Origin: Saprospiraceae bacterium
GTDB taxonomy: Bacteria; Bacteroidota; Bacteroidia; Chitinophagales; Saprospiraceae
Length of the DNA: 64,000 nt
Reading direction: 5' to 3'
Assembly: GCA_027080725.1 (NCBI GenBank)
Contig: JALWRC010000025.1
Coordinates: 1-64,000, forward strand
Of the stretch, positions 17,624-49,918 are shown piece after piece; within the stretch, counting starts at the first letter, position 1, and every line of letters starts with the position of its first letter. A program made the translations under genes and the position numbers. The notes below the pieces were generated by a model. It saw only the letters and a program-made list of their open reading frames with translations, made no database searches and had not been told where the DNA came from.

Positions 17624-19480
17624 TTATTTTTCTTTTCTGATGCGGTCAATTTCCTTTTCCAGTACACTCGTCGTAACAGAAGCGGTGTTGGAGTGATGAA
17701 TGTAGATATATTTACCTCCAAGCAGGTTTGCAAGGGATTTGGCTTCGGCGTTGTCCGCCTTATATCGCTTGGTATCAAAGATGATTGAGGCGATAATTTC
17801 TTTGTTGAGTGCCCCGGCCAATTGACGTATTTCTTGCAAAGCGACACTTTCGTCGGATCGCCCTTCGATATTTTTGTAGGGCATGTTGGCTCTCCCATCT
17901 GTAAACAAAACCAATACTGTCCCCGCGACGTCCCATTTTGAACGCGCTTGTTTTGCAAGGGAGAAGGCCTCGATAAGTGCTTTGGACAAAGGGGTTTTCC
18001 CACCGGCTGTGAAAGAACGCAAGACCTGTGAGGCTTTGGAGAGGCTATTACTCGGGGAGAGAATCAACTTAGCCTCCTTGTTTCTAAAGTAGATCATCGC
18101 CACTTTGTCGCGGTGCACATAAGCCTTTTCGAGTAGCCCGGTAATCGCCTTTCTCACAACACCCAACCGATTGATGGCCATGGAGCCCGAGCCATCGACG
18201 GCAAATATAAAGAGCAGTCCACTTTTTTGTTTGTATTTCTTAATATGAATATCAGCCGGTCTGATCACCGGGGCCTTGCCCCTCCTATTGACCGGATTAT
18301 TGCGAGCGGCGGCTTTTATCGTTGCCAGGATATCAAGGTGTCCTTTCTTGGGATCGCCGGGGACGGATTGTACATGCCTTCCACGCTTGAAATTGTAGGC
18401 ATCCACGTGGCGACCACTTCCTTTGGAAGCTTTGGTCTTAGCCGCAAACTCCGGGAAGCTCAAAGAAGGGGCTTCCTCATCCTGAAATACGGATACTTCC
18501 CTTGTTTCGGATTTCATTGTCTCGGGTTGATCCTTTTTGGAGGGGTCGTTTTGCCGGTGGCTTTGGGAGCGATGGTCCGGTCCGGACCCCTTGTGTTGCC
18601 GTTTGGACTCTTCCTTTCTCCTCTTTTCGGGCGTTTGATCTTTAGAAGGGGTGGATTTACCATTTTTTACATCGGATACCATCTCGTGATTGGTAAACCT
18701 GCTCATAAAGACCAGACGGCTGGCGAGGTCCACATCTTCGATAGCGACAGCTGCCCGATGGCTGAGCGCCGCATTGGCTTTGGCACATTGGACGGCAAAG
18801 CACTCGGGACTATTGCCCTCCACTCCCATCAGAGTAGCCAACTCACAAATTTTGACTATTTGTTTTTCGGTGATGGTGATATCCGGGTATAGCCGTTTGG
18901 CTTTTTGGACTCTATGAATAATGTCGGGAGCGATATACAGACTTTGCTCAAAATTGTTGGCCATATACATTCTCATCGGCAAATGCCCTATCGTACGCGT
19001 ATAGGTTATGAAGGCCAATTTGGAGCGCAAAGAGGGTAAGAGTGGTTTTTCTTCCGGATCAAATGTGGCGATCAAGCTGAAATTTGTTTTAATTTTCTTC
19101 GACAAGCCCACCATTTCAAGCCTTAAAAAACCTTCTGATAAGGCTTGAAGTATCGTTTGTTGGAGGCCTTCCTCAAGTAGATTGATTTGATCGACAAAGA
19201 GGACACCGCCCTGCGCCTTTTCGATTAATCCACGGGTGTGAACGAGGTGTGTCTTGCCCTCTTCAAATCTCAAATCCACTCCTCCGGTCAGTCTTTCGAG
19301 GCTACAATTCAATGGGACATTGACAAATGGAGCATCCGGCCAAAGAGCTTTCGCCGCCCTGCAAATAGAGGTCTTCCCCGTACCTTTCGGACCACCAATA
19401 AGCACCCCTTTGAGACCCGGATTGACGGCCAAAAGACAAAGTGCAATGAAGGGATCTTTCTGTCCGAAGAATGATTGCAT
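17624..19480 (-). CDS. Mg-chelatase subunit D-like AAA/VWA protein
   Basis: The domain order is that of BchD/ChlD: an AAA module (residues 1-250), a charged, low-complexity linker (about 270-390), and a C-terminal von Willebrand A domain. The Walker A motif GGPKGTGKTS (29-38) is intact, but the Walker B region reads VLFVDQINLLEEG, with Gln where an active ATPase has Glu, as expected for the non-hydrolysing D subunit. The VWA metal site DGSGSMAINR and the later FTDGRANMPYK are present. At 618 residues it has the usual BchD length. It follows the I-like subunit by 33 bases; a TATGAAATGGT motif sits in that gap (19483-19493). No H subunit (BchH/CobN) is in the window, so chlorophyll synthesis is unlikely. 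Confidence 0.82.
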   Translation of the reverse strand: MQSFFGQKDPFIALCLLAVNPGLKGVLIGGPKGTGKTSICRAAKALWPDAPFVNVPLNCSLERLTGGVDLRFEEGKTHLVHTRGLIEKAQGGVLFVDQINLLEEGLQQTILQALSEGFLRLEMVGLSKKIKTNFSLIATFDPEEKPLLPSLRSKLAFITYTRTIGHLPMRMYMANNFEQSLYIAPDIIHRVQKAKRLYPDITITEKQIVKICELATLMGVEGNSPECFAVQCAKANAALSHRAAVAIEDVDLASRLVFMSRFTNHEMVSDVKNGKSTPSKDQTPEKRRKEESKRQHKGSGPDHRSQSHRQNDPSKKDQPETMKSETREVSVFQDEEAPSLSFPEFAAKTKASKGSGRHVDAYNFKRGRHVQSVPGDPKKGHLDILATIKAAARNNPVNRRGKAPVIRPADIHIKKYKQKSGLLFIFAVDGSGSMAINRLGVVRKAITGLLEKAYVHRDKVAMIYFRNKEAKLILSPSNSLSKASQVLRSFTAGGKTPLSKALIEAFSLAKQARSKWDVAGTVLVLFTDGRANMPYKNIEGRSDESVALQEIRQLAGALNKEIIASIIFDTKRYKADNAEAKSLANLLGGKYIYIHHSNTASVTTSVLEKEIDRIRKEK

Positions 19481-19513
19481 GGTATGAAATGGTTTAACAT
19501 ATTAGCGGTCGAT

Positions 19514-20518
19514 TTACCCGACAAACAACTGTTCCAAAGCTTCTTGAATACGCTCACTCGAATCGATCTCCTGCAGGGGGTCTTTGCGCAAGCGATGACG
19601 CAAACACATAGAAGCGACCCGCTTGATGTCATTGACCTGAACCTCTGTTCTCTCCTCCATTGCAGCCAATGCTTTGGACGAGCGGATCATGACGATATCA
19701 CCCCTGTGGCCATCGATCTTGAGCATGAGACAAAGTTCGATGGTCTTGGCGATCAACCGTTCGGATATATCGACTTGCTGGACAAGAGATTGCGCTTTTA
19801 CAATGCGGTTTCGCAGTTCGTTCTCCTGAGATTTCCAGCTTTCGACAAATGCCTCCGGATTATTCTTAAAAGCCTCGGTACGGAGGATGATTTCGGTTCT
19901 TTGCCGGATATCCCGGATGGTGTCGACCTGTGTATAAAGTCCAAACCGGTCCAATAGCTGCGGGCGCAAGTCTCCCTCTTCTGGATTGCCGGACCCCACC
20001 AAAACAAAATCAGCGGGATGCCGGATACTCATCCCTTCCCTTTCGACAATATTGATTCCACTGACGGCGACATCGAGCAAGATATCTACCAGGTGATCTT
20101 CCAGGAGATTGACCTCGTCGATGTATAAAAATCCGCCATGAGCCAAAGCCAAGAGTCCGGGTTCGAAGGCTTTTTTACCTTCGTTGAGGACGAGCTCGAT
20201 ATCGAGCGTACCGAGTACCCTGTCCTCTCCCGCATTGAGTGGCAGGTCGACAATGGGGGCGTAATGATGCTTCTCCCCAAATTGGAGCCGGACGCGTTCC
20301 CGACGCTCTCCTATTTGTATCTCTGCAAAGAGGACATCCGTTTTATTAGGTGGAAGCAGCGCGGCCAGAGCACGCGCTGCAGTGCTTTTGGCCGTCCCAC
20401 GGTGCCCCATTATCAGAACTCCCCCAATCTTACGGTCTATCGCTGTCAGCACCAAAGCCAACTTCATCTCCTCCTGCCCGACAATCGCCGTAAAAGGGAA
20501 ATGGGTGGTGTCATACAT
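19514..20518 (-). CDS. Mg-chelatase subunit I-like AAA+ ATPase
   Basis: The sequence starts FPFTAIVGQEEMKLALVLTA and carries an intact Walker A GHRGTAKST (residues 38-46), a Walker B region GFLYIDEVNLLEDHLVD, and the arginine-bearing RPQLLDRFGLYTQVDTIRD, all characteristic of BchI/ChlI. The 334-residue length fits. I subunits form hexameric rings that, with D, drive metal insertion by a large H subunit or remodel other partners. Here the gene follows the EMO-like gene by 18 bases and precedes the D-like gene, at the distal end of the sHdr operon. Possible roles: assembly of a metal cofactor needed by the operon, or an AAA/VWA chaperone of the MoxR type. Neither is shown by the sequence. Confidence 0.85.
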   Translation of the reverse strand: MYDTTHFPFTAIVGQEEMKLALVLTAIDRKIGGVLIMGHRGTAKSTAARALAALLPPNKTDVLFAEIQIGERRERVRLQFGEKHHYAPIVDLPLNAGEDRVLGTLDIELVLNEGKKAFEPGLLALAHGGFLYIDEVNLLEDHLVDILLDVAVSGINIVEREGMSIRHPADFVLVGSGNPEEGDLRPQLLDRFGLYTQVDTIRDIRQRTEIILRTEAFKNNPEAFVESWKSQENELRNRIVKAQSLVQQVDISERLIAKTIELCLMLKIDGHRGDIVMIRSSKALAAMEERTEVQVNDIKRVASMCLRHRLRKDPLQEIDSSERIQEALEQLFVG

Positions 20519-41467: not shown

Positions 41468-42769
41468 TCATTCCCTCCCGGGCATTTGTCCGTACTCCTC
41501 ATCAAATTTTGCTCTTATTTCCTTTAAGCACAAGTTGCCCAAACTGCCTTCATGCGTGTGGGAAACCCTTTTATCCGGCTCAAAACGCCCTTCCAATATA
41601 TCTTTACCGACCCTCCGGTAGGCTTCGCGAAAAGGGACTCCGGCCATAACCAACTTGTTGACTTCCTCGACACTAAAGATATAACGGTACTTCTCCTCCT
41701 CGAGCAAATCACGCCGGACCCGGATATGTTGCAACATAAAATCGCAGACTTCCAGATGGTCTTTAACCCCTTCGATTCCACCCATCAGGGATTCCTTGAG
41801 CAATTGGTAATCCCTGTGATAACCGGAGGGAAGATTTCCGGTGATGTGCATAATTTCCGAGGGCAGATTACAGATTTTATTGCTTCGCGCGCGCAAGAGT
41901 TCGAAGACATCCGGATTTTGCTTGTGTGGCATGATGCTCGACCCCGTCGTCAATTCTTTTGGGAAGGATATGAAATGGTAATTTTGGCTCATATAGAGAC
42001 ACACATCTGCCGCCAACTGCGCCAGGGTGCCCGAAACGGAAGCCATGGCGAAAGCGACACTTTGCTCCAACCTGCCCCGGCTCATTTGAGCAGCAACAAC
42101 GTTGTATTTGAGCGTCCTGAATCCGAGCAATTGCGTGGTCATGCTCCGGTCAATGGGAAAGGAGGTGCCGTATCCCGCAGCCGAGCCCAACGGGTTTTGG
42201 TCACTGATGCGATAGGCCGCGTGCAGCAGGGTCAGATCGTCTATCAAACGCTCCGCATAGGCCGAAAACCACAAGCCGAAAGAGGAGGGCATCGCCACCT
42301 GCATATGAGTATAACCGGGCATCAAAACGTCTTTCTCGCGCTCACTCAATCCCATTAGGGTTTCAAATAGCCTTTTTATCAACCCTTTGATGATGACCAA
42401 TTCGTCCTTGACATAGAGGTGTAAGTCCACCAATACCTGGTCATTGCGCGAACGGGTAGTGTGTATTTTCTTGCCCGCCTCTCCAATCTCACTCACCAGG
42501 GCAAATTCGATTTTGCTGTGCACATCTTCAAATTGGGGCTCGATAACAAACACTCCCCGCTCGATCTGAGCAGTGATGGTATCCAATCCCCTGAGAATAT
42601 CACTGAGTTCTCCATCGGTTAATATCCCTATTTTATGAAGCATACGAGCGTGCGCTCTGCTCGCTTGAACATCGTATCGAGCGAGTTTCAAATCCAATAT
42701 CCGGTCGTTTCCCACCGTAAATCGTTCAACGATGTTATGCGTTGTGTATCCTTTATCCCAGAGTTTCAT
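41468..42769 (-). CDS. argH: Argininosuccinate lyase
   Basis: Catalyses the last step of arginine synthesis, splitting argininosuccinate to arginine and fumarate. The fumarase-superfamily signature is GSSIMPHKQNPDVFELLRAR; HTTRSRNDQVLVDLHLYVKD and PGYTHMQVAMPSSFGLW are further family landmarks. The chain (433 residues) ends in a short tail, as in Bacteroidota. It is the last gene of the arginine operon and overlaps the deacylase gene by 4 bases (ATGA). A TATGAAATGGT copy (41970-41979) lies within, read from the minus strand as Tyr-His-Phe-Ile. Confidence 0.96.
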   Translation of the reverse strand: MKLWDKGYTTHNIVERFTVGNDRILDLKLARYDVQASRAHARMLHKIGILTDGELSDILRGLDTITAQIERGVFVIEPQFEDVHSKIEFALVSEIGEAGKKIHTTRSRNDQVLVDLHLYVKDELVIIKGLIKRLFETLMGLSEREKDVLMPGYTHMQVAMPSSFGLWFSAYAERLIDDLTLLHAAYRISDQNPLGSAAGYGTSFPIDRSMTTQLLGFRTLKYNVVAAQMSRGRLEQSVAFAMASVSGTLAQLAADVCLYMSQNYHFISFPKELTTGSSIMPHKQNPDVFELLRARSNKICNLPSEIMHITGNLPSGYHRDYQLLKESLMGGIEGVKDHLEVCDFMLQHIRVRRDLLEEEKYRYIFSVEEVNKLVMAGVPFREAYRRVGKDILEGRFEPDKRVSHTHEGSLGNLCLKEIRAKFDEEYGQMPGRE

Positions 42770-43875
42770 TTTACTGTATTTTTTGAGTTTAAAATGGTGG
42801 AAGAACGAATCACCTCCTCCAAAATGTCAATATACCCTTGTACGCCCTCATTGAGTTCATCAATCCGGATAAACTCATCGGCACTGTGCGACCGTGTGGA
42901 CTGACCCGGACCCATCTTGAGGGAAGGACAGGACAGTACTGCTTGATCGGAAAGCGTCGGAGACCCATACGTCTTTCTACCCAGTCGTATCCCCGCCTTT
43001 ACGATGGGATGTCCGGGAGAAATCGAAGAAGAGTTCAGCTGAAAGGAGCGCGCCTCCATCCGGCTCTTGGTATGCGCATCAATGATATCAAAGACCTCTC
43101 GATTGGTGTAGGCATCGTTTACCCGCACATCGACCACAAAATGGCAGCGGGCCGGAACGAGATTGTGCTGTTTGCCGGCTTGGATTTGGGTGACACTCAT
43201 CTTCACTTTGCCCAACGTCTCCGACACTTTGTCGAAGCGATGTGTCCGGATCCAATGGATGTCTTCGAGGGCTTGGTAGATGGCATTCTCGGTATTTTCG
43301 TGTGCAGCATGTCCGGCAATGCCCGAGGCATACCCGTCGATGACGAGTAGTCCTTTTTCCGCAATAGCCAGCTGCATACCCGTCGGTTCTCCTACGATGG
43401 CAAAATCGATCTCCGGCAGACGGTGGATCAAATATTTCAAGCCCCATTCTCCGGAACTTTCTTCTTCCGCCGTAGCGGCAATCAGGAGGTTGTATCTCAA
43501 ATCCTCCTCCTCATAAAAATGAGCAAAAGCGGCCAACAAGGATACCAGGCTTGCTCCGGCGTCATTGCTGCCGAGACCGTAAAGCACCTCTCCTTCGATG
43601 GCCGGGTCAAACGGGTCCCGGGTATATCCGGCGTTTGGACGTACCGTGTCGTGATGCGAGTTGAGGAGTATCGTCGGCTTCTCCGGATTAAAGTACTTGT
43701 TGACCGCCCAAACATTGTTCTTATCCCTGTGAAAAGCCATACCACGCGAGGCCATCCACTCCTCCAAGTGTTGGGCCGTCCCGTCCTCCTCTGCGGAAAA
43801 AGACGGGATTTTGATGAGCGCCCGGAGCAATTCCAATGCTTCCCGGGTCGCCGCTGTTAACTTCTTTTTTTGCAT
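42766..43875 (-). CDS. argE: M20-family acyl-citrulline/acetylornithine deacylase (ArgE')
   Basis: A zinc M20 hydrolase of 369 residues. Metal-site features are LLNSHHDTVRPN, YGLGSNDAGASLVSLL and AATAEEESSGEWGLKYL; a later His is in SDQAVLSCPSLKMGPGQS. Because the operon has the N-acyl-ornithine carbamoyltransferase type, this enzyme is expected to remove the acyl group from N-acyl-citrulline before ArgG (pathway knowledge). It is coupled to argH by a 4-base overlap and follows argB by 26 bases. Confidence 0.88.
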   Translation of the reverse strand: MQKKKLTAATREALELLRALIKIPSFSAEEDGTAQHLEEWMASRGMAFHRDKNNVWAVNKYFNPEKPTILLNSHHDTVRPNAGYTRDPFDPAIEGEVLYGLGSNDAGASLVSLLAAFAHFYEEEDLRYNLLIAATAEEESSGEWGLKYLIHRLPEIDFAIVGEPTGMQLAIAEKGLLVIDGYASGIAGHAAHENTENAIYQALEDIHWIRTHRFDKVSETLGKVKMSVTQIQAGKQHNLVPARCHFVVDVRVNDAYTNREVFDIIDAHTKSRMEARSFQLNSSSISPGHPIVKAGIRLGRKTYGSPTLSDQAVLSCPSLKMGPGQSTRSHSADEFIRIDELNEGVQGYIDILEEVIRSSTILNSKNTVK

Positions 43876-43901: not shown

Positions 43902-44687
43902 TTATAATACGACCAATGTGCCTTTTCCTCCTTCTCCGCGGGTCAGCAAATCCTCCGGAAGCCCGATTTTAACCCGGCGGACGCCGTTTTCAAGTGCATT
44001 AAAGCAGTTGTCCAACTTGGGCAGCATACCCTCGTGTATTACCCCCGCTTTCGACCATTTCATATACGACTCCTTATCCAATCGCTCTACCACAGAATCC
44101 GCATCATTCACATCCCTCATGACTCCTTTCCGGTCGAAGCAGTACAGGAGGGTGACATCATAACTGCCGGCCATGGCGATGGCGATTTCTGCGGCGATGG
44201 TATCCGCATTGGTGTTGAGCAATTGGCCCTGACCGTCGTGCGTGATGGCACAAAAAACAGGCACAAATCCCATGTCCATCAAAGCATTCAGATGCTCCTT
44301 TTGGACCTCCACAACATCTCCCACAAATCCATAGTCCACCGATTGGACAGGACGCCGGATCGCCAAAATGAGATTGGCATCCGCTCCACTCACCCCCAAC
44401 GCTTGGCAGGATTGGGCCTGCAAACCCGCTACGATCTGCTTGTTGATAAGGCCGGCATAAACCTGAACGACGAGCTCGAGGGTCGCAGCGGAAGTGATGC
44501 GTCGTCCCCGGTGCATCTCCGCCGGGATACCGAGCCGCTTGCCGAGCGTTGTGGCTTTGCTCCCCCCGCCGTGTACAAGAATTTTTCTACCCGGCAAGCG
44601 GGCAAAATCCTTTAGGACAGCTTGCAGTTTTGGCGGGGCGTCGATGAGGGCACCGCCTATTTTTACTATGGTTACTTCAGGCTTCAT
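43902..44687 (-). CDS. argB: Acetylglutamate kinase
   Basis: Phosphorylates N-acylglutamate, the second step of arginine synthesis. The sequence starts VTIVKIGGALIDAPPKLQAV; the nucleotide-binding KILVHGGGSKATTLGKRLGI and substrate-site INADTIAAEIA-like stretch LLNTNADTIAAEIAIAMAG confirm the amino-acid kinase family. At 261 residues it has the usual length for the arginine-insensitive type (no N-terminal extension). The start overlaps the carbamoyltransferase stop by 11 bases. Confidence 0.95.
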   Translation of the reverse strand: MKPEVTIVKIGGALIDAPPKLQAVLKDFARLPGRKILVHGGGSKATTLGKRLGIPAEMHRGRRITSAATLELVVQVYAGLINKQIVAGLQAQSCQALGVSGADANLILAIRRPVQSVDYGFVGDVVEVQKEHLNALMDMGFVPVFCAITHDGQGQLLNTNADTIAAEIAIAMAGSYDVTLLYCFDRKGVMRDVNDADSVVERLDKESYMKWSKAGVIHEGMLPKLDNCFNALENGVRRVKIGLPEDLLTRGEGGKGTLVVL

Positions 44688-45624
44688 CCAATAACATTTT
44701 TAGTACGGCTTGTGCTGCATAAACCCGGTTGTGCGCCTGCTCCAAAACGATGGATTGCGGTCCATCCAATACGGCATCACTGACGACTACATTGCGCCGT
44801 ACCGGCAAACAGTGCATAAATTTTCCGTTATGGGTCATCGTCATTTTCTCCTCTGTTATCATCCAATCCTCCCATCCCGCGACGCTCTTCCCGTAGTCCG
44901 TGTAGCTGCTCCAATTCTTGGCATAGACAAAATCCGCCCCTTCCAACGCCTCCTCCTGACAGTGTGTCACCTTCAGCCCTTCCACAAAACGGGGTGCCAA
45001 CTCCAGTCCCGGTGGATGGGTGATGACCAAGTCCACCTCCGATGCCCGCATCCATTGGACAAACGAATTGGCCACTGCCTGTGGCAATGCCTTGGGGTGT
45101 GGCGCCCAGGTGAGGACCACCTTGGGGCGATGTGTACGTGCCTGCTCGCGTATAGTCATGAGGTCTGCAAGGGACTGAAGGGGGTGCAATGTCGCACTCT
45201 CCAAAGAGATGACCGGTACCGTAGCATGGGCGATAAATTTATTCATCAGGACTTCCTCGTAGTCTTTATCCCGGTCATCGAGCGAAGCAAAGGTCCGCAA
45301 TCCGATGATGTCGCAGTACCGGGAGACCACCCCGGCAGCTTCCTTGATGTGCTCCTTCGAGCTGCCATTCATCGTAGTGCCATCTTCCAACTCGATATTC
45401 CACCCGTCGCTGTTGAGGTTCATGACCATGACGTGCATCCCGAGAAGCTGCGCCGCCTTTTGGGTGCTGAGTCGTGTCCTCAAACTCGGGTTAAAAAACA
45501 GCATACACAGCGTCTTACCCCGTCCAAGCATCGTAAACTGATGCGGATCGGCTTTCATAGACCGGGCCAGGGACAGGAGATCCTCTAACCGGGCGACGTC
45601 CTGAATCGAAGTGAATCCTTTCAT
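44677..45624 (-). CDS. argF': N-acyl-L-ornithine carbamoyltransferase (ArgF')
   Basis: A transcarbamoylase of 315 residues. The carbamoyl-phosphate loop is FNPSLRTRLSTQKAAQL, and the C-terminal HCLPVRRNVVVSDAVLDG has the VRRN form of acetyl-/succinyl-ornithine enzymes rather than the classic AHRG form (family knowledge). The loop that distinguishes acetyl from succinyl substrates reads TTMNGSSKEHIKEAAGV; it has neither the Glu nor the Pro that mark the two characterised groups, by my alignment. So the acyl group is undecided. The start at 45624 overlaps the argD stop as ATGA; the frame upstream of it is low-complexity and overlaps argD, so it was excluded. Confidence 0.9.
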   Translation of the reverse strand: MKGFTSIQDVARLEDLLSLARSMKADPHQFTMLGRGKTLCMLFFNPSLRTRLSTQKAAQLLGMHVMVMNLNSDGWNIELEDGTTMNGSSKEHIKEAAGVVSRYCDIIGLRTFASLDDRDKDYEEVLMNKFIAHATVPVISLESATLHPLQSLADLMTIREQARTHRPKVVLTWAPHPKALPQAVANSFVQWMRASEVDLVITHPPGLELAPRFVEGLKVTHCQEEALEGADFVYAKNWSSYTDYGKSVAGWEDWMITEEKMTMTHNGKFMHCLPVRRNVVVSDAVLDGPQSIVLEQAHNRVYAAQAVLKMLLDEA

Positions 45625-46838
45625 ACCTGTGGATTTGAATTGAGCGATTGTAGCGCTTCGATGAAGGGCGCCATGTCTTCTGCGGTGATGGTGAGCGGGG
45701 GGAGTATGCGCAGCAAATTGGGATTGGACGAGGAGCCCGTGAAGATGTGGCACTCTTCCAATAACCGCTTCCGAAGCTCTTTGACCGGGAAGTCGAATTC
45801 CAGGCCCAACATCAGTCCCCTTCCCTTGACTTTTTGTACGTAGGGTAGGGTATGAAATTGTTGATCAAGTGCTTCGCCTACCTCCTTGGCGTGCGCAATC
45901 AAGTCCTCCTCTTCCAGAATTTTCAAAACGGCCAACCCCGCTGCGCAAGCCAGATAATTGCCTCCAAAGGTGGTGCCGAGCATGCCTTTGCGGGCGGTTA
46001 TCCCGGGAGAAATGAGTACTCCGGCTACGGGAAAGCCATTGCCCATCCCTTTGGCTATGGTGACAATATCTGCCGTGATGCCTGCCCGCTGATGGGCAAA
46101 AAAACTACCCGTTCGCCCGTACCCGCTTTGTATCTCATCCAGGATCAACAAGGTCCCGGTAGCGGTACACTCCCCTCTCAACCACCGTAAAAACTCCGGT
46201 TCTGCCTCGGCCAATCCCCCGATTCCTTGAATCCCTTCGATGATGACGGCCGCTACATCGCCCGGTGCCAAGGCGCGCTCAACCTCGTCTTTATTATTGA
46301 GTGTAGCAAAGACCACTTCAAAATTTCCGGCATTCAAAGGCGAGGAAATGCGGGGATTGTCCGTGACATTAAGCGCTGCGGAGGTCCTACCGTGGAAGCT
46401 CCCCCTGAAGGCGATGACCTTTCTTTTTGAGGTATGAAAAGAGGCCAATTTTAATGCATTTTCATTGGCTTCCGCACCACTGTTGCACAAGAACAGGCGG
46501 TGGTCGCTATATCCGCTTTGCCGCGCAATAGCACCGGCCAACTGCTCCTGCAAGGGGTTGCGAATGATATTGGAGTAAAAACCGATATTCTTCAGTTGGG
46601 TAGTCAGTGCCCGCACATATTCCGGATGACTGTGGCCGACGGAGATCACCCCGTGCCCTCCGTACAAATCGAGATAGCGCGTCCCATTGGAGTCCCACAC
46701 ATGGCACCCTTCTGCCCGGACGATCTCGACCTCAAACGGCGAGTAAACGTCAAACAGTGAAGAGGCCTTTCTCCCTTGCACATGGGGCGAAATACCGGTG
46801 TTATTGTTAGTTGGTGATTTAAGATGCAAATTCATCAT
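45621..46838 (-). CDS. argD: Acylornithine aminotransferase
   Basis: A class-III PLP aminotransferase of 405 residues. Landmarks: YLDLYGGHGVISVGHSHPEY, LFLCNSGAEANENALKLASF, the aspartate region LLILDEIQSGYGRTGSFFAH, and the PLP Lys in IVTIAKGMGNGFPVAGVLIS. It converts N-acylglutamate semialdehyde to N-acylornithine. It starts 18 bases after argC and is coupled to argF' by a 4-base overlap. Met2 is an equally possible start. Confidence 0.95.
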   Translation of the reverse strand: MMNLHLKSPTNNNTGISPHVQGRKASSLFDVYSPFEVEIVRAEGCHVWDSNGTRYLDLYGGHGVISVGHSHPEYVRALTTQLKNIGFYSNIIRNPLQEQLAGAIARQSGYSDHRLFLCNSGAEANENALKLASFHTSKRKVIAFRGSFHGRTSAALNVTDNPRISSPLNAGNFEVVFATLNNKDEVERALAPGDVAAVIIEGIQGIGGLAEAEPEFLRWLRGECTATGTLLILDEIQSGYGRTGSFFAHQRAGITADIVTIAKGMGNGFPVAGVLISPGITARKGMLGTTFGGNYLACAAGLAVLKILEEEDLIAHAKEVGEALDQQFHTLPYVQKVKGRGLMLGLEFDFPVKELRKRLLEECHIFTGSSSNPNLLRILPPLTITAEDMAPFIEALQSLNSNPQV

Positions 46839-46845
46839 TATTCTT

Positions 46846-46858
46846 TTATGAAATGGTT
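46846..46858 (+). repeat. TATGAAATGGT motif in the argC-argD gap
   Basis: TTTATGAAATGGT fills most of the 18-base gap and ends inside the argC stop codon. One of the intergenic copies of the window-wide motif. Confidence 0.7.
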
Positions 46859-47834
46859 AAAAATAAGAGGCTTTCAATCCCAATCCGCTGTCCTCTTCCC
46901 ATCCGTACAGGAGGTTCATGTTTTGGATGGCCTGCCCGGCAGCCCCTTTGAGCAGGTTGTCAATGACCGAAATGACAAGTGCTTTATCGCCCTTCTTTTG
47001 GACGTGGACAAAACAATTATTGGTATTGATGACTTGTTTGAGATCCGGAGCTTTCTCTACACAGTGGGTAAAAGGCTCCTTTTCATAAAAGGTCCGGTAT
47101 CGATCGCGCAACTGCTCCTCCGTCTCTTCGGTATGGGTATATACACTCGCAAAAATACCCCGCGTAAAACACCCTCTTACCGGAATAAAATGCATCTCCC
47201 CAATGGGACATCCCTGCAACTCCGTAAGCTGCTCTCCGATTTCACCAAGGTGCTGATGCGTGAAGGGTTTGTAGATGGACACATTGTTATTTCTCCAACT
47301 GAAATGCGTCGTATCCGTCGGTTTTTGTCCGGCTCCCGTGGATCCGGTAATGGCGTGGACATGGATGTCCCCGGCCAGCTTCCCCCCCGAGGCCAACGGC
47401 AGTAAGGCCAACTGGATGGCTGTGGCAAAGCAACCCGGATTGGAGATATTGGCTGCATTCCGGATCTTATTCTTGTTTTTCTCGACCAACCCGTACTCAA
47501 ACTTCCGCCCTCCAAAACACGCCTTCTCCGACAGACGAAAGTCTTGACTCAAGTCTATGATTTTGGTCTCCGGACGAAATGGATGTCTCTCTAAAAACGC
47601 CTTCGAGTGCCCATGCCCCAGACAAAGGAAGACCACATCAGCACCGGGATGAACTTCCCCTGTAAACCGGGGCAACGAAACATGTTGTAAATCCCGGTGC
47701 AAGGCCCCAACCGGCTTACCGGCATTCGAATGACTAAAGATAAAATCCACCTCCACCTCCGGGTGATGGACAAGACACCTCAACAACTCCCCGGCGACAT
47801 AACCGCTTCCCCCTACAATTCCTGCTCTTATCAT
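46857..47834 (-). CDS. argC: N-acyl-gamma-glutamyl-phosphate reductase
   Basis: NADPH-dependent reductase of 325 residues. The Rossmann start is IRAGIVGGSGYVAGELLRCL, and the catalytic Cys is in NISNPGCFATAIQLALLPLA; HVHAITGSTGAGQKPTDTTH and IPVRGCFTRGIFASVY follow. Its start overlaps the argG stop by 4 bases. Confidence 0.95.
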   Translation of the reverse strand: MIRAGIVGGSGYVAGELLRCLVHHPEVEVDFIFSHSNAGKPVGALHRDLQHVSLPRFTGEVHPGADVVFLCLGHGHSKAFLERHPFRPETKIIDLSQDFRLSEKACFGGRKFEYGLVEKNKNKIRNAANISNPGCFATAIQLALLPLASGGKLAGDIHVHAITGSTGAGQKPTDTTHFSWRNNNVSIYKPFTHQHLGEIGEQLTELQGCPIGEMHFIPVRGCFTRGIFASVYTHTEETEEQLRDRYRTFYEKEPFTHCVEKAPDLKQVINTNNCFVHVQKKGDKALVISVIDNLLKGAAGQAIQNMNLLYGWEEDSGLGLKASYF

Positions 47835-49027
47835 AATACATGATTTACGTGATTAAATATCTGTACCGGATTGGCGAGAATCCGGGTAAACCCCTTCACA
47901 TCTTCACCGCTCCATTTGAGATTGGTCTCCCCGTACTGGCCGAAGTCGGAGGTCATCAAGTCGTGGGGGGACCGGATGCCGTCAATCGAAAATCGGTAAG
48001 GCGCCAAGGATACCGTGACCTCTCCGGAGACAAACTGTTGGGTGTCCGTCAGAAAATGCTCGATATTGCGCATGACCGGGTCAAAGTACTGCGCTTCGTG
48101 CAAAAACATGCCATACCATCCGGCCATTTGCTCTTTCCAATGCAACTGCCACTTGGTCAATGTGTGTTTTTCCAAAGCATGATGGGCTTTGATGATAACG
48201 GTGGCCGCGGCGGCTTCAAACCCTACACGCCCCTTAATCCCGATAATGGTATCCCCTATGTGGATATCCCGCCCGATGGCGTACCGGGAGGCGATGGATT
48301 CGATCCTCCGGATGCCTTCGACAGGAGTGACCGGTTGGCCATTTACGGAGTGGATCTCTCCCTTCTCAAATCCAATTTGAAGTGTTTCCGGGCCCTCCGC
48401 TTTTAGACCGCTGGGGTAGGCAGAATCCGGAAGAGGAAGATGTGAGGTGAGGGTTTCGGCGCCTCCGACACTCGTGCCCCACAGCCCTTTATTGATGGAG
48501 TATTTTGCCTTTTGGGCATCTACTTCGACTCCGTGCCGTTGCAGGTATTCGATTTCTTCCGTGCGCGAGAGCTGCAAGGTCCGGATCGGAGTCAAAATCT
48601 CTATCTCCGGCGCGATCAATTGGAAAATCAAATCAAAACGCACCTGGTCATTGCCGGCACCGGTGCTGCCATGGGCGATGTACTTCGCCCCGATCTTCTT
48701 GGCATACCCGGCCAAAGCGATGGCTTGATGTACGCGCTCGGCGCTCACAGAAAGCGGGTAGGTGTTGTTTTTCAGGATATTGCCGAAGATGAGGTATTTG
48801 ACGATTTTGTCATAGAAGACCTCCGTCTGCTCCAAAGTGATGTGCTGCTCTACCCCTAAGGCATAAGCTTTTTGTTGGATAACCTGGAGTTCGGCATCGG
48901 AAAATCCCCCCGTGTTGACAATGGCAGAATATACCGCCAACCCCTTCTCGTGCTTGAGGTATTTGGCGCAAAACGAGGTGTCCAGTCCCCCGCTAAAAGC
49001 GAGTAATACTTTATCTGATGGATGCAT
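47831..49027 (-). CDS. argG: Argininosuccinate synthase
   Basis: Joins citrulline and aspartate with ATP. The PP-loop is VLLAFSGGLDTSFCAKYLK, and IAHGSTGAGNDQVRFDLIFQ is the citrulline/ATP site. At 398 residues it is full length. It lies 1 base after the GNAT gene and overlaps argC by 4 bases. Confidence 0.95.
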   Translation of the reverse strand: MHPSDKVLLAFSGGLDTSFCAKYLKHEKGLAVYSAIVNTGGFSDAELQVIQQKAYALGVEQHITLEQTEVFYDKIVKYLIFGNILKNNTYPLSVSAERVHQAIALAGYAKKIGAKYIAHGSTGAGNDQVRFDLIFQLIAPEIEILTPIRTLQLSRTEEIEYLQRHGVEVDAQKAKYSINKGLWGTSVGGAETLTSHLPLPDSAYPSGLKAEGPETLQIGFEKGEIHSVNGQPVTPVEGIRRIESIASRYAIGRDIHIGDTIIGIKGRVGFEAAAATVIIKAHHALEKHTLTKWQLHWKEQMAGWYGMFLHEAQYFDPVMRNIEHFLTDTQQFVSGEVTVSLAPYRFSIDGIRSPHDLMTSDFGQYGETNLKWSGEDVKGFTRILANPVQIFNHVNHVL

Positions 49028-49028
49028 G

Positions 49029-49688
49029 TTAGAATAGTTTTATGCGATGAATGACATGAGGTAGTTTATCTAAACTTTGCTTCAGGCGCTCCTTCCGGTC
49101 TTTCAAGAAGGCGGCGAATCCGGCCCGGGAACGCTCCTCTGCCGGTGTGCCGTCCCGTACTTCTTTGAGGTCGCAGACCATGGCGGTGCAAAGACACATC
49201 TTACGGTGGGTGCGTTGGAGAATATCGTAGTTGGTACAACTCCGGCACCCCTGCCAGAATTTTTCGTCCCGGGTCAATTCGGAGAAAGTGACCGGTTTAT
49301 AGCCGAGGGAAGAATTGATTTTCATCACGGCCATACTGGTCGTAATTCCAAACAAGCGGGCTTGGGGAAATTTTTCCTTTGACAGTTGGAAAGTCGCTTT
49401 TTTGATTGCACGTGCCAAACCTTGGTTCCGGTAGTCCGGATGGATGATGAGCCCCGAATTGGCCACAAACTTCTTATTCTCCCAACTCTCGATATAACAA
49501 AAACCGACGAGTTTCCGGCCGTCCAAAGCGATGACAGCCTGTCCCTCCTTCATTTTGTCCGTCAGGTACTTCGGGTCGCGTTTGGCAATACCCGTTCCGC
49601 GCACTTTTGCCGCCGCTTCCATCATTGCACAAATGGAAGGCGCATAACTGTAATGTCGATGGTCTGCTACCGTAATAGATACCGGCAT
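49029..49688 (-). CDS. GNAT acetyltransferase, candidate N-acylglutamate synthase
   Basis: The GNAT fold is seen in KLVGFCYIESWENKKFVANS, the acyl-CoA loop in HPDYRNQGLARAIKKATFQL, and GITTSMAVMKINSSLGYKPV. It is the first structural gene of the arginine operon, where no other acetyltransferase (argA or argJ) exists, so it probably makes N-acylglutamate (inference from context). The C-terminal 70 residues are unusual for GNATs: Cys occur in GCRSCTNYD and KMCLCTAMVCDLKE, five or six in all, a possible metal site or redox switch. Confidence 0.82.
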   Translation of the reverse strand: MPVSITVADHRHYSYAPSICAMMEAAAKVRGTGIAKRDPKYLTDKMKEGQAVIALDGRKLVGFCYIESWENKKFVANSGLIIHPDYRNQGLARAIKKATFQLSKEKFPQARLFGITTSMAVMKINSSLGYKPVTFSELTRDEKFWQGCRSCTNYDILQRTHRKMCLCTAMVCDLKEVRDGTPAEERSRAGFAAFLKDRKERLKQSLDKLPHVIHRIKLF

Positions 49689-49714: not shown

Positions 49715-49755
49715 AAAAATGAAAACAATAAAAGATTGAGCGTTACCGCTCCCGG
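49715..49755 (-). terminator. Attenuator-type terminator before the arginine operon
   Basis: On the minus strand GAGCG-GTAA-CGCTC (49751-49738) is followed by a U-rich stretch reading AATCTTTTATTGTTTTC. It lies between the putative leader peptide and the GNAT start at 49688, where read-through would be required for operon expression. Confidence 0.6.
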
Positions 49756-49764
49756 AAAAACATG

Positions 49765-49881
49765 CTACCAGACCCTTGCGGGTCTCCTGTTTCTCCTCCT
49801 GCATACCGGGACGCACACACGAATAGCAGCCTCGGGTGAAGCCACTTCAAAAAGGCGATATGTGCGATGGTTACATTTCAT
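49765..49881 (-). CDS. Putative arginine-rich leader peptide of the arg operon
   Basis: A 38-codon frame starting ATG at 49881. Its end reads CRRRNRRPARVW: six Arg in nine codons, all AGG or AGA, within 16 codons of the stop. A hairpin AGACCC-TTGC-GGGTCT (49785-49770) overlaps the last Arg codons, and a second hairpin with a U-rich tail lies 14 bases past the stop. This is the classic layout of ribosome-mediated attenuation: stalling at Arg codons when arginyl-tRNA is short would change RNA folding. The exact antiterminator was not resolved; UCCCGG near 49808-49813 can pair with CCGGGA just before the terminator. Confidence 0.65.
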   Translation of the reverse strand: MKCNHRTYRLFEVASPEAAIRVCVPVCRRRNRRPARVW

Positions 49882-49889
49882 TTGAGCCG

Positions 49890-49918
49890 TAAAAGTATAA
49901 AAATTTGTAAATATCCAA
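49890..49918 (-). promoter_or_regulatory. Candidate promoter of the arginine leader
   Basis: Minus-strand TTG (49918-49916), 18 bases, then TACTTTTA (49897-49890), one base off TAnnTTTG. The start point near 49884 would leave only a few bases before the leader ATG. Confidence 0.45.

Follow-up and report, generated by a model that had tools for sequence, protein, structure and literature searches.

Ribosome-mediated attenuators of the Escherichia coli class are represented in Rfam by the Trp, His, Leu and Thr leaders, and for arginine bacteria are usually said to employ the repressor ArgR. Attenuation of amino-acid operons was reportedly treated by Lopatovskaya et al. in 2010. That Arg codons in a leader can act as a sensor is known from Salmonella, where the tandem Arg codons of speF orf34 sense arginine via ribosome pausing (PMC6386406), and from Staphylococcus aureus, where AGA/AGG codons of rbfL sense arginine shortage (PMC13009471). 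Both differ from the leader described here: orf34 acts on ornithine decarboxylase by way of Rho, RNase G and exposure of the ribosome-binding site and has its Arg codons at positions 12-13, not C-terminally (PMC6386406), while rbfL is an 8-amino-acid leader that imposes a translational block on a biofilm regulator, with starvation lowering expression (PMC13009471). Within the same phylum, PMC9723704 reports strong clues to leader-peptide attenuation upstream of amino-acid operons of Flavobacterium psychrophilum, its main text containing no case for arginine. For Actinobacteria, published work states that no RNA element of this kind was seen at arginine operons, and our search of the openly readable literature returned no Arg attenuator of an arg operon in Bacteroidota. 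As a class of mechanism, attenuation is old; its use for arginine, its breadth within Bacteroidota and the mutual exclusion with ArgR appear to be undescribed in the searchable literature, priority being uncertain.

The locus considered here lies in a 64,000-nucleotide stretch of the genome of a Saprospiraceae bacterium, referred to in its entirety as the window. On its minus strand, an ORF of 38 codons plus TAG (49881-49765; product MKCNHRTYRLFEVASPEAAIRVCVPVCRRRNRRPARVW) stands upstream of an arginine operon. The sequence-only reading had described this frame as ending in RRRNRRPAR, with six C-terminal Arg codons that are all AGG or AGA; upon translation exactly this is seen, with VW following before the stop, so that the C-terminus reads RRRNRRPARVW. 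The presumed regulatory codons, AGG AGG AGA (AAC) AGG AGA (CCC GCA) AGG, were read in the sequence at 49774..49800 (minus strand), and among 639 ATG-initiated ORFs of 15-60 amino acids in the window this leader is the sole one (1/639) with at least six Arg in its last 12 codons. A short ORF enriched in Arg codons upstream of an arginine operon is what an attenuator would call for. Like the trp, his, leu, thr and phe attenuators, the locus combines a short ORF carrying tandem codons for the product amino acid, a promoter in front of it, and hairpins with a putative terminator before the first gene. Unlike them, it is arginine-specific, is predicted to have a near-leaderless start without a Shine-Dalgarno sequence, forms its first hairpin (P1) out of the regulatory codons, and yielded no 2:3 antiterminator in the window; neither the window nor the relatives tested gave a leader match to Rfam covariance models, that of the T-box included.

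The eight-gene arginine operon that had been claimed downstream of the leader was recovered in full, all genes lying on the minus strand in the order GNAT-argG-argC-argD-argF'-argB-argE-like-argH. The leading gene, which encodes a GNAT-family acetyltransferase (49029..49688) and presumably provides the N-acetylglutamate synthase step, begins 76 nt past the leader stop, a distance that reaches about 300 nt in the type S relatives defined below. It is followed by argG (argininosuccinate synthase, 47831..49027), argC (46857..47834), an argD-like acetylornithine transaminase gene (45621..46838), argF' (N-acetylornithine carbamoyltransferase, 44677..45753 if counted from the first in-frame start, the real start probably lying further in), argB (43902..44687), a gene for an argE/dapE-like M20 deacylase (42766..43875) and argH (41468..42769). 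Relatives that carry names put the group of the window in Saprospiraceae. The GNAT gene is present in 91 of 199 family genomes and in 159 of 396 genomes sampled across the phylum, and argG resides in the same stretch in 106 of the 118 relatives' loci that were long enough for the test.

The evidence that carries our reading comes from these relatives. Leaders were chosen by promoter position, ignoring Arg content altogether: the ORF taken was the one that opens with an ATG 3-11 nt past the strict TAnnTTTG box nearest the gene. At least three Arg occur in the last 15 codons of 71 of these 76 promoter-chosen ORFs, as opposed to 4/76 in the +1 frame and 1/76 in the +2 frame; conservation of the Arg codons despite a changing DNA sequence had been set beforehand as the observation on which the sequence-only reading should stand or fall, and it stood. 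An earlier variant of the promoter-based selection returned 66 Arg-ending leaders out of 69. The codons differ: the window uses AGG/AGA, and elsewhere CGC and CGT prevail (CGC 129, CGT 115, AGG 51, CGG 28, CGA 24 and AGA 23 among the promoter-chosen leaders), meaning that the amino acid is kept while the DNA has changed. Regulatory codons conserved as amino acids and not as DNA are a further property of attenuators. Tails in relatives include RRRP, RRFRRRP and RRNRRRLRA. Arg leaders occur in Saprospiraceae, Cytophagales, Flavobacteriales and Fodinibius, and upstream of GNAT they are also named in Crocinitomicaceae, Marivirga, Fulvivirga, Mesonia and Cellulophaga. Where ORFs were selected for their Arg content, clades devoid of a leader (L227, L208 and L212 among them) contributed chance calls, which weaken the counts so obtained; the promoter-chosen 71/76 is unaffected. 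In three loci (L201, L207 and L222), two Arg-ending leader ORFs stand in tandem before the GNAT operon, those of L201 being MHTSNKTNQISLRRRRPMRRS and MQSYN..NRISVRRYFPRP.

Promoters of Bacteroidota generally follow a -33/-7 consensus. In the window, a -33-like TTG was read in the sequence at 49916..49918, 18 nt upstream of a -7 box, TACTTTTA (49890..49897, both on the minus strand), which is one position off TAnnTTTG and 8 nt upstream of the leader ATG. Most relatives with an Arg leader have a TAnnTTTG box 4-11 nt ahead of that ATG, and in its strict form the box precedes the ATG by 4-9 nt in 61 of 66 Arg leaders, which were themselves selected via the box. TAnnTTTG is also given as the -7 box in PMC9723704, which likewise states that Bacteroidota do not rely on Shine-Dalgarno sequences. 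Since the box lies upstream of the leader ATG in the window and in relatives alike, the predicted transcription start falls upstream of 49765. Judged by the short spacing between box and ATG (mostly 4-9 nt), transcription in the window probably begins a few nucleotides upstream of the ATG, thus producing a nearly leaderless mRNA. A predicted promoter box in front of the leader ORF, at a spacing conserved among relatives, is again in keeping with attenuation, and the Arg leader offers a directly testable case in a phylum in which attenuation is little studied and translation starts without Shine-Dalgarno sequences.

Both hairpins that had been noted by eye, one overlapping the end of the ORF and the other followed by a U-rich tail, were found. 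P1 (AGACCC-GCAA-GGGTCT, 49785-49770, minus strand) is formed by the last Arg, Pro and Val codons, ends two nt before the stop codon and has a predicted energy of -9.5 kcal/mol on its own. In the minimum-energy fold it may be extended (49754..49796) by pairing of the Arg codons GGAGAAACA (49796-49788) with UGUUUUUCC (49762-49754), a segment located between the leader stop and P2, which brings the predicted stem to -18.9 kcal/mol. P2 (GAGCG-GUAA-CGCUC, 49751-49738, minus strand; -7.2 kcal/mol alone) is a candidate intrinsic terminator, whose homologous position in relatives holds a covarying hairpin; the next stretch is AATCTTTTATTGTTTTC, with a U-rich tail read at 49715..49737 (minus strand). 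A hairpin with such a tail between leader and first structural gene is a predicted attenuator feature. The whole leader is only moderately more stable than shuffled sequences (z -1.97), so that RNA structure by itself is insufficient to make the case, which is made by conservation in relatives.

Folding for competing structures had also been proposed as a check. Such structures are predicted in many Saprospiraceae of type S; in the window, no convincing antiterminator (P1 3' arm with P2 5' arm) was seen, and P2 still forms with the P1 5' arm masked. The only pairs available for a trp-like 2:3 antiterminator in the window are CUGG:CCGG, which coexist with P2. P1 itself was rejected as the terminator in the window, where the U tract begins 9 nt past the stem; a U tract does follow P1 in L103, L074 and L098, making it a plausible terminator there. 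Pairing of the leader 5' end with a segment near the GNAT start was likewise discarded as the mechanism in the window (z +0.98), and it is not general either (mean z -0.27 over 167 loci). In a distant, deep-branching clade (f24; L151-L179), leader codons 6-10 have their complement 70-100 nt past the stop, and this pairing, seen by eye, changes in step between species, as exemplified by ACATTGTTCG/CGAACAATGT in L159.

Among relatives, a strong P1-like hairpin, whose positions 3-6 show several pair types, stands at the leader end in 71/179 loci (19.5 expected), and terminator-like hairpins stand between Arg codons and GNAT in 76/186 loci against 17.9 expected, both counts being subject to the chance calls mentioned above. 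A P1 pattern matched 16 times in the 199 family genomes, at least 15 of these at GNAT loci, and the reversed control pattern gave 0 matches. Three architectures can be separated. In type S, which comprises most Saprospiraceae, P1 is CGCCC-nUAG-GGGCG, its loop holding the stop codon, and is followed by the segments A (CAUAUYAYCC), B (GGGURG) and C (CYACC). The A:B and B:C hairpins, which share B, are both present in 11 of 25 sequences by strict criteria versus 0.33 expected, and upon masking of the P1 5' arm most sequences fold the P1 3' arm with A, together with B:C. The ten nucleotides after the hairpin hold 4.2 T for A:B versus 3.3 for B:C, some tails being incomplete. With a ribosome halted at the last Arg codons, the P1 3' arm would pair with A, and the A:B hairpin, which precedes the more U-rich tail, would not form; as predicted by folding, the logic is that of a classical attenuator. 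Type S leaders such as L011, L013, L017 and L020 contain two copies of the motif ACATATYAYCC, one close to where the leader ORF begins and one right after P1; the early copy encodes TYHP or HII, and pairing accounts only for the CC end of the motif.

In type W (Cytophagales, marine Flavobacteriales and the window), P1 lies within the ORF end and P2 follows. The P2 stem covaries strongly across 19 sequences (score 0.764, shuffled 0.272, 0/500), which were chosen for showing the hairpin, biasing the count towards it, and its loop is a UACGU pentaloop in most of them. Flavobacteriaceae, the third architecture, have GGAAAUAGGUGAGUCCAUUUCC instead. Because P2 has no U-rich tail in many Cytophagales and Flavobacteriales relatives, it may not be a terminator there. 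In L223, L237, L251 and L258, relatives within one order, a conserved hairpin extends from the leader stop (UGACAGGACGAGCC..GGCCCCUGUCAGUGAA and variants), with no credible match in Rfam.

We put the probability that the leader acts on the arginine biosynthesis operon as a ribosome-mediated attenuator specific for arginine at roughly three in four. This had been called probable from the start, and in-frame conservation of Arg, the predicted promoter position and the absence of ArgR, set out below, all speak in its favor. According to the attenuator model, transcription would start a few nucleotides before the leader ATG and a ribosome would trail RNA polymerase along the leader ORF. With ample Arg-tRNA, the ribosome would pass the Arg codons and reach the stop, P2 would form and transcription would end at the U-rich tail. 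With Arg-tRNA scarce, it would stall on AGG AGG AGA AAC AGG AGA, covering the 5' arm of P1 and its extension; the ensuing change of the downstream fold would let polymerase read into GNAT-argG-argC-argD-argF'-argB-argE-argH, such that arginine shortage, by stalling ribosomes, probably turns the operon on. Translation of the leader, its sensing of arginine, the sign of its response and the precise RNA switch of the window are what we infer from these elements. As the minimum-energy fold pairs GGAGAAACA with UGUUUUUCC, a ribosome on the Arg codons would be expected to alter the fold next to P2, by which polymerase might be allowed to pass; the switching step is predicted for the Saprospiraceae cousins and presumed for the window. 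Speaking against the attenuator model, the window shows no classical antiterminator, a ribosome at the stop codon would cover P1 as well, and P2 is often devoid of a U-rich tail in Cytophagales and Flavobacteriales relatives.

Could the Arg-rich C-terminus be a mere by-product of a purine-rich, G+C-rich RNA hairpin, the ORF being no functional leader? All Arg codons of the window are AGG/AGA within one purine-rich stretch (AGGAGGAGAAACAGGAGA), as this would demand; however, relatives use CGC/CGT/CGG/CGA in addition to AGG/AGA, and only in the promoter-proximal ATG frame, the other two frames not being Arg-rich, which already refutes the proposal for the family and makes it scarcely credible for the window. 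Control by ArgR or another DNA-binding regulator, with an incidental leader, is very improbable too. Other parts of the phylum often have ArgR (139 of the 396 genomes), but a search for PF01316 did not find it anywhere in the organism's own assembly, nor above cut-off in any of the 199 family genomes (0/199), the same search having found the Bacteroides control; the earlier remark that no ArgR-like gene is seen thus extends to the whole assembly and the family. In the same 396 genomes, kinship being ignored, ArgR occurs in 7 of 159 that bear the GNAT gene versus 132 of 237 that lack it. Two of the seven are weak or repeated low-scoring matches and five belong to families f11/f12; an ArgR match and GNAT are no more than a few hundred bases apart in G431, G541 and G588, and in the two ArgR-adjacent GNAT loci of f11/f12 that were read (L228 and L244) an Arg leader was not recognised. 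Phylum-wide, ArgR and the GNAT-type arginine operon are nearly mutually exclusive. The leader peptide hence seems to replace ArgR in a large part of Bacteroidota, which would make a clean example of one operon exchanging a DNA-binding regulator for an RNA-based one.

A different objection accepts the Arg-sensing leader and disputes its output, which, instead of intrinsic termination, could be termination by Rho, decay of the mRNA or an effect on first-gene translation, comparable to speF (PMC6386406) and rbfL (PMC13009471), whose Arg-codon leaders act in such ways. In many relatives P2 consists of a conserved UACGU loop on a covarying stem without a U tail, the stretch after P2 is pyrimidine-rich, and the window gave no antiterminator, all of which would suit such an output. 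On the other hand, terminator-like hairpins are enriched about fourfold in relatives, P2 of the window is followed by a U-rich tail, a clear intrinsic terminator serves the trp leader of this organism, and the GNAT start is too far away (76 nt, up to ~300 nt in type S) to be masked directly. Altogether we regard a non-intrinsic output as unlikely. Rather doubtful as well is a wider proposal, namely that outside the ArgR lineages near-leaderless Arg leaders govern arginine synthesis throughout Bacteroidota, with P2 (an invariant UACGU in some orders, AGGUGAGUCC in Flavobacteriaceae) acting without classical antitermination, for example through recognition by a protein or by RNA polymerase, and with ArgR and leader being interchangeable at the operon.

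The attenuator reading also finds a counterpart elsewhere in the organism's genome. Neither hisG nor ilvD had a match in its assembly, which is rated 100% complete; the organism thus probably does without synthesis of histidine and branched-chain amino acids and retains that of arginine, placing the arginine operon among the biosynthetic pathways that the genome kept. At L276 (contig C13, ~19377-19808, minus strand), a trpE-like gene (best NCBIfam match trpE_most, E 1.8e-118, below the curated cut-off) is preceded by the leader ORF MMQRFLNTNNWWWLHLSSFG*, with three tandem Trp codons (WWW), then by a 12-bp terminator hairpin and UUUUCUUUUUU. Given this Trp leader and the terminator before trpE, leader-peptide attenuation is very probably in use in the organism. 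The Trp and Arg leaders are alike in having tandem cognate codons and a terminator, in the latter case a putative one, before the gene; the Trp leader differs in its longer, stronger 12-bp terminator with a U-rich tail, and no sequence similarity between the two was seen. In one relative (L162, positions 234-289), a whalefall-1 RNA (RF01762) scores above the gathering threshold about 1.2 kb from the GNAT gene.
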